The notes under the pieces are model-generated. The model was not told the DNA's origin. It ran no database searches and was given only the letters and a program-made list of their open reading frames with translations. Source: Isoetes taiwanensis (Eukaryota > Streptophyta > Lycopodiopsida > Isoetales > Isoetaceae). Taken from it: a DNA stretch of 64,000 bases. This document shows positions 24,395 to 59,035 of this stretch, in pieces. The stretch spans positions 62,001 through 126,000 of the forward strand of contig JAJEKV010000052.1 in NCBI GenBank assembly GCA_021234155.1. The letters run 5' to 3'. Position numbers and translations under genes: made by a program. Numbering within the stretch: position 1 is the stretch's first letter; every line of letters starts with the position of its first letter.

Positions 24395-24517
24395 ACACAC
24401 ACACACACACACACACACACACACACACACACACACACAGAGAGAGAGAGAGAGAGAGAGAGAGAGAGAGAGAGAGAGAGAGAGAGAGAGAGAGAGAGAG
24501 AGAGAGAGAGAGAGAGA
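24395..24517. repeat. Compound (CA)n(GA)n microsatellite
   Basis: About 22 CA units pass directly into about 39 GA units. The GA part abuts the 3' end of LINE H. Confidence 0.97.
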
Positions 24518-25188
24518 TGAATGAAATGAAATGTTGATTTATTACGCCAGAGACCACCAGGTCTATGAGGCGATCAATGTACATATTCAACGTTATAAAG
24601 ATATCCTCTAATGCATCTTCCCGACAAGAATGCATTAGACTCTTCCCATCTCTCATCATGTATAACATTACAATCTTTAATACTCATTAGTCTGTTCTCT
24701 CACGTATCAATATCTCCTTCAAGTATTTCCCAATGTGATGTCCGGGCATATCAAAGAATTCAAAGAAAGAGTTTGAATGGATCTTTGTACTTATCTCGAA
24801 TCCCCCGAGTATGATGGGCACCTTTACGATGACATGTAATTCATCTTCTACTTCTCCCATATTGCATACTTTTGCAAAAATCTCAATTCATGGGGAATAT
24901 TACTCCAACGCCCTACTTCAACTCCAAGCCTATGGGAGCTAAGCCGCATCCTCGCTATCATCATGCTCATGCGCCAAAAGACACACCTTCCTTGAGGTAT
25001 TTGGCCTCTTGGAGAGTGGGATTTATATCTTGCCTATAGAAATGTTTTTTTTGTCTCAGGGACTCTCCAAATTTTCTTCTAATGAGGTGCTCATGCACCC
25101 TCTCTTAGATTGCCCTTATTCTCAATATATACCATGAATGTCCATCCCCCACTTCCTCATCCATTCCCTAATATCTGAGTACCATCCC
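24518..25188 (-). mobile_element. LINE H: 5'-truncated LINE, 671 bp
   Basis: The minus strand starts inside the ORF2 C-terminal region (WYSDIREWMRKWGMD), aligning with WYADIQKWMRKWDLD of LINE A. It continues through LSSHRLGVEVGRW, the 3' stem-loop AGACC-TGGT-GGTCT, and ends with ATTTCATTTCATTCAT before (CT)n. The 5' truncation point also abuts (CT)n. The ORF is broken by frameshifts. Confidence 0.88.
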
Positions 25189-25387
25189 AGAGAGAGAGAG
25201 AGAGAGAGAGAGAGAGAGAGAGAGAGAGAGAGAGAGAGAGAGAGAGAGAGAGAGAGAGAGAGAGAGAGAGAGAGAGAGAGAGAGAGAGAGAGAGAGAGAG
25301 AGAGAGAGAGAGAGAGAGAGAGAGAGAGAGAGAGAGAGAGAGAGAGAGAGAGAGAGAGAGAGAGAGAGAGAGAGAGAGAGAGAGAGA
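25189..25387. repeat. (GA)n microsatellite between LINE H and LINE B
   Basis: This is a pure tract of about 99 units separating the truncated 5' end of LINE H from the 3' ATTTC repeats of LINE B. Confidence 0.97.
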
Positions 25388-25634
25388 AATGAAATGAAAT
25401 GAAATGAAATGAAATGTATATAAATATCACGCCTGCAGGCCACCAGGCCTATGAGACGTTCACCGAGTACATTCAACATTGTAGAAAATATCTTCTAATG
25501 CATCCTCAGATAGAAATGCATTACCTCCCTCCCACTCATCATCAGTTCTCTCCTTACAATTAGATAATTTCAATAAATGGTCTCAATGCCCAAGCACTTC
25601 TATAATGAATTGTCCTATCTTAGTGCTTGGTAGA

Positions 25635-26345
25635 TCAAAAAAAATCTCTCAAATTATCACAAGTAACGATACTTACCCCCGAGATATGTGTATCTTTGGA
25701 CAACTTAAAAAGCGCATATACTTCATCTTCAACGGCATTCATACCACACAGCTTACATACTCTTAAGGCATGTGGAATATGATTCCAACGCCCTACTTCC
25801 ACGCCCAACCTGTGTGAACTAAGTCTGATCCTGCTGATTGCATGCACGGACTTAAGCGCAATCCCCATCTCAAGATATTTCGGTGATAAGCGGATGAGGG
25901 TTAATAAAGCGCCTATAATATTCTTTTTCACTCGAACGCCATGACTTTTCTACCACATGCTCTTGCACCCGGGATCTAAGGTCATCATGGTGTGCAAGAA
26001 GTTCATGGGGATCTAGATCCCATCTCCTCATCCATATCTCCACCTCTGCATACCACCCCTTATGTCTAGTTGCTTCCAAAGCCATATTGGGTATGACATA
26101 GTTTTGTCTCCCTAGCTGCACTTTACATACATAAGCAAAGCTGCCCTACATAGCGCTTGGGCTTCTAAACTCATCATCCCACATTCAGCCAATAACATAT
26201 CATATGGGGTCTGTGCCTTAACACCCAGTTCTGTTCTAAAAAACGTTTTTTGAACCTTCTCCATTTTCCTCCAAGTGTCATCTGCCAAGCCAGGTGCCCA
26301 CACTTCACAACCATACAATAGTACCGATTGTACTAACACAGCATA
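25635..26345 (-). pseudogene. LINE B ORF2, C-terminal portion
   Basis: From 26339 the minus strand reads VLVQSVLLYGCEVW and TELGVKAQTPYDMLLAECG, the region after the RT thumb. Frameshifts follow, then GWYAEVEIWMRRWDLD and RIRLSSHRLGVEVGRW. The CCHC motif is damaged: the first two cysteines (CKLC) remain, while the His and last Cys positions read Tyr and Leu. The segment is continuous with the RT part at 30113, from which element 2 separates it. Confidence 0.88.
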
Positions 26346-26739
26346 TAATCCTATATTATAAAACCGTGGCGTTTGGTCTCAGGCGCCCGATCGACGGGCC
26401 GAGATCGCTTAATGTCCTCGCCTTTGCGGGACGGCCCAGATTTGTTCGTTTGTTATGGACGATTCAGATTTGGCCACGTCACAAAAGAGAAAGGAGGTGT
26501 CGTTTCAAGATTTTAACGTGGCATGGTTTGGTTTGGGATTAACGGGATTTCGTTTTGCGCTCTTCACGGTTTCGAAGTCCGCAAAAGGTCTGTGGAGCAA
26601 GCATTTTGGAGCAAGCATTTTGTTGCTCATTATTATTATTATTTGTCCGAGAGGATTGGTCTGCACCGTGCAATGATTTTCTTAATTTTTGGGCAGTTTT
26701 GATAGCTTTTGAAATGGCGGACATCCGCAACAGAATCCG

Positions 26740-58266: not shown

Positions 58267-58368
58267 GAGAGAGAGAGAGAGAGAGAGAGAGAGAGAGAGA
58301 GAGAGAGAGAGAGAGAGAGAGAGAGAGAGAGAGAGAGAGAGAGAGAGAGAGAGAGAGAGAGAGAGAGA
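58267..58368. repeat. (GA)n microsatellite upstream of LINE E
   Basis: Pure tract of 51 units between the truncated 5' end of LINE E and LINE tail G. Confidence 0.97.
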
Positions 58369-58486
58369 TGTATTTTTACGAGAGCACAAGAGCATCCTCT
58401 AGGATAGCTCCCTCTTCAGGAGCACCACCCCCACAAGGATACCAGGGGCCAAAAGGTCCTAGGATGCCAAGATCCTAGTGAGGTTC
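58369..58486 (-). mobile_element. LINE tail G: very short 3' fragment (118 bp)
   Basis: Bounded by (GA)n on both sides. The minus strand contains CCTAGAGGATGCTCTTGTG, similar to the LINE A coding end with 'CTAGAGGATATATTT', then a stop and ATAC before (CT)n. The 3' stem-loop is not evident, so membership of the family rests on position and weak similarity. Confidence 0.5.
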
Positions 58487-58648
58487 GAGAAGAGAGAGAG
58501 AGAGAGAGAGAGAGAGAGAGAGAGAGAGAGAGAGAGAGAGAGAGAGAGAGAGAGAGAGAGAGAGAGAGAGAGAGAGAGAGAGAGAGAGAGAGAGAGAGAG
58601 AAGAAGAAAGAAGAAGAAGAAGAAGAAGAAGAAGAAGAAGAAGAAGAA
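58487..58648. repeat. (GA)n passing into (GAA)n
   Basis: About 55 GA units followed by about 16 GAA units. It separates tail G from tail F. Confidence 0.97.
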
Positions 58649-58821
58649 AAATTTTTTAACGCCCTTGGAGACCACATTGATCTATGGGACACTCACCCAA
58701 TTGGGCCCTTCCCCCAACCACTTTACATCAATTGTAGTCAGTTTACATCTACCAATGGTACAAAGTGTCCTCTTATCACCCCATAAGGTTCAACACTTCA
58801 AGTCGACCATCCAACAGTGAC
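58649..58821 (-). mobile_element. LINE tail F: 3' UTR fragment (173 bp)
   Basis: The minus strand ends GTCCCATAGATCAATGTGG then TCTCCAAGGGCGTTAAAAAA. LINE E reads CGTCCCATCGACATGG then TCTCAAGGGCGAATAATAAA at the same place. Both ends abut (GA)n or (GAA)n. Confidence 0.75.
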
Positions 58822-59035
58822 GAGAGAGAGAGAGAGAGAGAGAGAGAGAGAGAGAGAGAGAGAGAGAGAGAGAGAGAGAGAGAGAGAGAGAGAGAGAGAG
58901 AGAGAGAGAGAGAGAGAGAGAGAGAGAGAGAGAGAGAGAGAGAGAGAGGAGAGAGAGAGAGAGAGAGAGAGAGAGAGAGAGAGAGAGAGAGAGAGAGAGA
59001 GAGAGAGAGAGAGAGAGAGAGAGAGAGAGAGAGAG
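58822..59035. repeat. (GA)n microsatellite at the outer edge of the LINE train
   Basis: About 106 units with one GGAGA interruption at about 58949. Beyond it is the non-LINE flank tcttcatttagttatggag. Confidence 0.97.

Follow-up and report, generated by a model that had tools for sequence, protein, structure and literature searches.

Target-specific LINEs of the Kibi type, which belong to the Tx1 clade of animals and were reportedly described by Kojima and Fujiwara in 2004, are said to take a TC microsatellite as their target. Among other elements associated with short repeats, according to the accessible portions of the papers cited, Togen of fish is (TG)n-specific and is treated together with relatives of NeSL, which is an RLE clade (PMC4640811), and LINEs and SINEs of the RTE clade carry microsatellite-like 3' repeats, a short-repeat tail having been proposed to function in priming (PMC13295347). 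The latter paper, of 2026, also states that among LINEs with an APE-like endonuclease, site-specific elements occur in the Tx1 and R1 clades only. In plants, the same kind of partial sources describe a conserved 3' stem-loop with compensating changes and the sharing of tails between LINEs and SINEs in the L1 lineage (PMC3747384), transposable elements of various kinds that are often surrounded by microsatellites serving as landing pads (PMC12477314), and the Mutator-like elements named MuTAnT, which target TA microsatellites (PMC4486113). No plant LINE with a microsatellite target was recognised among the papers listed in the literature searches, most subscription journals lying outside them.

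The window analysed here, a stretch of 64,000 nucleotides of the Isoetes taiwanensis genome, contains two trains of elements on the minus strand (Table 1), one consisting of X, E/G and F and the other of H, a SINE-like element, B and D; LINE A is located on the opposite strand to both. The initial annotation had described a single train of six LINEs inside one microsatellite, each with (GA)n on both sides. Every (GA)n spacer that it listed is present at its coordinates, though the one between X and E amounts to merely (GA)8 and the one between the SINE-like element and H changes to (AGA)n beyond 58601. Five of its minus-strand LINE units (F, G, E, D and B) have translated matches to LINE A; the sixth, H, owes its assignment to its 3' end alone. 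A single LINE, interrupted by a Helitron-like insert, accounts for both E and G: its match to LINE A breaks off at 30114 in E and picks up in G, at about 26348, with the following LINE A position. The unit between B and H is SINE-like, and a 3'-end fragment, X, had been overlooked. The units with (GA)n on both sides are F, E/G, B, the SINE-like element and H, whereas D has it on the 5' side only and near 52.33 kb joins other sequence without a tail. The tracts reported to bound LINE A are indeed there, and all 13 exact (CT/GA) runs of the window, of which the shortest is 16 bp, touch a LINE or SINE-like end. A hairpin plus a CTAGT end, which we take to be a Helitron-like motif, characterises the inserts at 26349-30113 and 35113-35138, the latter apparently being the Helitron-like end that interrupts X. 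The approximately 17 kb between the two trains yielded no further match to LINE A in a translated comparison; two ORFs at 43454-44797 resemble, by eye, a plant transposase (putative). Three stretches of mostly C and T (22436-23740, 59385-60527 and 63516-64000, the last two being duplicates) have several frames open for up to 434 codons, probably as a result of their composition.

Table 1. Features of the two minus-strand trains and of LINE A with its surroundings, in window coordinates.
Feature	Position	Strand	Remarks
(TC)n on 5' side of LINE A	15352..15434	+	
LINE A	15435..19974	+	86-100% copies in genome
ORF1-like frames of LINE A	about 15621-16545	+	no match in Pfam
APE-type endonuclease and RT ORF of LINE A	16581-18887	+	Pfam RVT_1, Exo_endo_phos
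3' hairpin of LINE A	19913-19943	+	followed by (CATTT)n tail
(TC)66 on 3' side of LINE A	19975..20106	+	
Insert-free paralogous site	20190..20333	+	same flanking words, interrupted CT tract, without LINE
(CT)n on 3' side of F	24439..24517	-	GA on plus strand; adjoins (AC)n
LINE unit F	24518..25188	-	5'-truncated; (CT)n on both sides; translated match to LINE A
(CT)n joining 3' end of G to truncated 5' end of F	25189..25387	-	
G	25388..26348	-	forms one LINE with E (5' part), being its 3' part; upper limit approximate
Helitron-like insert splitting E/G	26349..30113	- (as listed; orientation uncertain)	hairpin and CTAGT end
E	30114..34923	-	5' part of the E/G LINE; translated match to LINE A
Poly(A) retroposon inside E	about 31531-32751	+	apparent GGGTTGCC duplication
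(CT)8 separating 3' end of X from 5' end of E	34924..34939	-	
X	34940 to about 35112	-	3'-end fragment of a LINE; apparently interrupted upstream by Helitron-like end
LINE D	52326..56508	-	(CT)n directly at 5' end; lacks 3' end; lower limit approximate
(CT)n separating 3' end of B from 5' end of D	56509..56679	-	
LINE B	56680..58266	-	5'-truncated; (CT)n on both sides; translated match to LINE A
(CT)n between B and SINE-like element	58267..58368	-	
SINE-like element	58369..58486	-	between B and H; 5'-truncated; 3' end GTAAAAATACAT, then (CT)n
(CT)n, then (TTC)n	58487..58648	-	(CT)n to 58601
H	58649..58821	-	LINE 3'-end fragment, 5'-truncated at (CT)n; assigned from 3' end alone
(CT)n on 5' side of H	58822..59035	-	
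Second copy of B fragment and its (CT)n	62852..63166	-	without SINE-like and H units

The elements are APE-type LINEs of several families. In LINE A, Pfam places an APE-type endonuclease (EEP/APE) and a reverse transcriptase (RT) within one ORF, after which the frames are broken. An AlphaFold model of the endonuclease, built on a stop-free relative (L045) with six aligned sequences, has a mean pLDDT of 67 and a pTM of 0.77, and at this low-to-middling confidence its best PDB matches appear to be the L1 endonuclease, ranked first, and exonuclease III and AP endonucleases; compared with the sequences of solved (PDB) structures, the endonuclease has no close relative (best E 0.43). For the RT, the PDB sequences supply only L1, R2 and other RTs, too narrow a set for assigning a clade. 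Both Pfam and the structure match indicate an APE domain, with no restriction-like endonuclease in its place.

The 3' flanks of LINE copies were read throughout the 1.658-Gb genome to which the window belongs, the one genome searched. The copies are the best-scoring ones, 40 being scored of 869 (query A), 134 (query B) and 664 (query F) first-look candidates, and the samples comprise 30 loci of 41 matches for A (including the window copy and an inverted pair), 39 of 41 matches for B (leaving out the window copy and one second piece) and the first 20 of 39 non-window matches for F. On the sense strand, at least five CT units were present at the tail in 24/30, 35/39 and 18/20 copies, respectively (77/89 in total), and at least five GA units in 0/89, set against a background of (CT)≥5 in 2.3% of random 60-bp stretches from the copy flanks and 0.6% in the window. 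The control was the poly(A) retroposon that interrupts E, a family that may or may not be a LINE. It has 367 first-look candidates genome-wide, and those of its copies that were read have poly(A) and ordinary flanks; from 43 matches, 20 3' ends and 15 5' ends were read, and (CT)≥5 was found in 0/20 and 0/15 (Fisher p for 3' ends: A, 5e-9; B, 4e-12; F, 3e-9). The suggestion of the initial annotation that (CT/GA)n is the LINE target is thus well supported genome-wide among the sampled copies, most of which adjoin (CT)n in one orientation, and by the comparison family from the same genome. Most of the 12/89 3' ends that lack (CT)≥5 have short or interrupted CT; it is absent entirely from L013, L036, L095 and L164. 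One exact tail word is followed by (CT)5 within 20 bp in 79 of 131 forward-strand copies, with mirror controls at 0 (the forward count alone is used because in the reverse count one start can have several ends, which inflates it), and at the commonest junctions the tail ends in T and CTC follows (24 and 18 of the 58 that were classified).

The LINE 3' ends consist of a hairpin followed by an A/T-rich stretch and, as a rule, by (CATTT)n. In an alignment of 12 LINE ends of our choosing, 97.4% of the hairpin cells pair, compared with 25-51% in slid controls, and six cells are changed on both sides, a number reached by 0/500 shuffles; three pairs are changed on both sides, and the covariation is modest because 89/500 shuffles reach that number.

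The SINE-like family was sampled by reading 14 of 39 non-window matches, in which (CT)≥5 lies within 30 bp on the 3' side in 14/14 and on the 5' side in 8/14, a disparity that fits a partly element-borne tail. Its 3' end before the (CT)n is GACGTAAAAATACAT or a close variant, near which the element can fold a GUCGUA/UACGAC stem. By eye, GTTCGAACC is similar to a pol III B box; no tRNA was detected by ARAGORN (four loci) or Rfam (three loci). The word GACGTAAAAATA is common to this family and one LINE end (L049), the alignment of SINE and LINE ends being weak, and the SINE-like element presumably uses LINEs of this group.

These observations are best explained if APE-type LINE families and a SINE-like family insert into (CT)n by target-primed reverse transcription in one orientation, a reading to which we assign a probability of about 0.8. 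Judging from the orientation, the machinery would nick the (GA)n strand. Priming from a GA 3' end is the simplest reading because at the junction the antisense strand consists of (GA)n, and the exposed end would prime on the RNA tail, that is, (CATTT)n in the LINEs and ACAT in the SINE-like element. A new copy would split the tract, leaving (CT)n on its 3' side and also on its 5' side unless a second cut or deletion removed it, and the leftover tract could receive a further insertion, again in that orientation, giving rise to head-to-tail trains. Either an endonuclease that prefers (GA)n or a pairing RNA tail, which might include read-through (CU)n, could choose the target. Tail pairing stays in play because (CT)n is more frequent on the 3' side than on the 5' side, and some of the (CT)n at 3' ends may be element-borne or the product of later slippage.

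Among family A copies, 5' ends were resolved at 24 of 30 loci (the others being L030-L033, L035 and L036), and (CT)≥5 lies within 60 bp in 15/24, or 15/23 if the inverted pair L039/L040 is counted once, compared with 0/15 in the control (p 3e-5). In eight of these 15 positive ends (LINE A, L041, L043 and L045-L049) we set the boundary at the tract by visual inspection, the first few hundred bases being unalignable to LINE A; L042 was given a placeholder start, and the stretch upstream of it held no (CT)≥5. Boundaries set by alignment alone, in truncated copies, give 7/14 (control 0/15, p 0.002). The remaining 5' ends (8/23, or 7/14 with alignment-defined boundaries) are without (CT)n, and within trains a 5' tract can represent the preceding element's tail.

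Sites without an insert also bear CT tracts. LINE A occupies one copy of a tandem repeat with a 137-bp period, of which the other copy is LINE-free; at 62.85-63.17 kb there is a second such paralogue, the counterpart of 58.1-59.0 kb, in a block (62.85-64.0 kb) that matches 58.1-59.9 kb but is without the SINE-like and H units, which may have been lost by recombination. The third is a MITE-like repeat in L046, where an empty copy, CATGTGGCC...(TC)54...GGCCACATG, is found 1.5 kb from an occupied copy, in which (CT)n closes the left half and the LINE comes next; the left flank of the repeat is close in L052, less so in L041 and only loosely similar in L047 and L055. With its inverted CATGTGGCC/GGCCACATG around (CT)n, this repeat is a recurrent landing site (L010, L041, L046, L047, L052, L055 and L130). 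On the reverse strand of L046, at about 6500-6850, a short element ending in GACGTTAAAA(CT)n is flanked by two copies of CATGCCCTATTG, both of them preceded by a CT tract, likely a target duplication that takes in the tract; elsewhere, target-site duplications are masked by (CT)n, and this is the one likely case.

The 5' flanks and insert-free sites bear on the strongest competing explanation, that the elements themselves make the (CT)n, their transcripts reading into or ending in (CU)n, so that a short CT site suffices and the tract is copied and then expanded. (CT)n is steadier on the 3' side than on the 5' side both in the SINE-like family and in family A (24/30 at 3' ends; at 5' ends 15/23, or 7/14 with alignment-defined boundaries), the SINE-like 5' flanks of L119, L126, L128 and L129 have short CT at most, and the origin of microsatellites from LINE 3' termini is a published idea (PMC8232201, in its accessible part, citing Grandi and An 2013). 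Nevertheless, truncated copies also have long (CT)n on their 5' side, the insert-free paralogues with CT tracts belong to two non-LINE repeats, and the likely target duplication in L046 includes the tract, so we regard manufacture of the tracts by the elements as possible but rather doubtful.

Trains recur outside the window. A further LINE stretch is present on the same strand at 18/29 family A loci and on the opposite strand at 2/29; counted by side, 22 sides have a same-strand neighbour and three an opposite-strand one, two of the three belonging to L040, which is half of an inverted pair. In this count the upstream side is unscored at the six loci with unresolved 5' ends, and the stretch neighbouring L057 may be part of the focal copy. 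Segmental duplication, or spread within the MITE-like repeat, might generate trains and (CT)n flanks in place of repeated retrotransposition, and some observations point that way: the block at 58-59 kb is duplicated at 63 kb, the MITE-like repeat recurs in flanks, and L010/L011 (contig C1028, 15.077-15.081 Mb) is an inverted pair of LINE A copies that face each other with the same 5' break, either a true palindrome or an assembly fold-back. However, 5' truncation points differ from copy to copy, which argues against one duplicated block, the flanks vary as well, and several families together with the SINE-like element take part, making this origin very unlikely. Random insertion followed by the best survival under selection of copies at (CT)n sites, although a harmless niche is plausible, accounts neither for the strand bias (GA in 0/89) nor for another retroposon family of the genome without such a pattern, and is extremely unlikely.

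Genome-wide counts of tail words joined to long tracts show the same asymmetry: CATTT(CT)14 occurs 405 times (mirror control 4), TTTCAT(CT)14 549 times (mirror control 5) and TACAT(CT)14 151 times (mirror 29). An artefact of assembly in CT tracts can be dismissed as close to negligible, since hundreds of junction words on many contigs are strongly asymmetric relative to the mirror control and the outer flanks differ among the loci read, even if tract lengths are doubtful in an assembly described, in the accessible part of its report, as Nanopore-based and Illumina-polished (PMC8566536). T-first tract edges, DT(CT)14, number 4619, and a LINE-tail-like word is present at 954 of them, about a fifth of such edges of long tracts (by motif, C-first edges being outside the count), which offers one explanation for the abundance of CT microsatellites. 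A broader and more tentative proposal, which we rate somewhat below an even chance, is that several LINE families and SINE-like partners, strongly strand-biased, use up CT tracts and also make new ones by means of a GA-pairing 3' tail, seeding their own targets, so that a large share of the long (CT)n of the genome is owed to them.

Among the closest known systems, the Kibi type is said to have in common an APE-type endonuclease, a TC-type microsatellite target and one orientation, a likeness of features drawn independently of any RT phylogeny; the present elements differ in having a plant host, a SINE-like follower and head-to-tail trains. According to the accessible parts of the respective sources, Togen likewise has a dinucleotide microsatellite target, whereas the LINEs described here have an APE domain (PMC4640811); the RTE clade resembles them in its short-repeat tail and SINE partner but targets a T stretch plus a TA signature instead of a long microsatellite (PMC13295347); the plant L1 lineage shares the 3' hairpin and SINE partner, but its source, as far as accessible, mentions no CT-tract target (PMC3747384); the landing-pad review makes a general statement and, in the part available, names no LINE family with a dinucleotide target (PMC12477314); and MuTAnT is a plant element with a microsatellite target but a DNA transposon (PMC4486113). 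Microsatellite-specific LINEs are already known in animals. A group of CT-targeting LINEs would be a natural assay of whether the endonuclease or pairing of the RNA tail sets the target, and LINEs of a plant that target a dinucleotide repeat, form trains and have a SINE-like follower would either extend the Tx1/R1 picture of site-specific elements or add a host to it.
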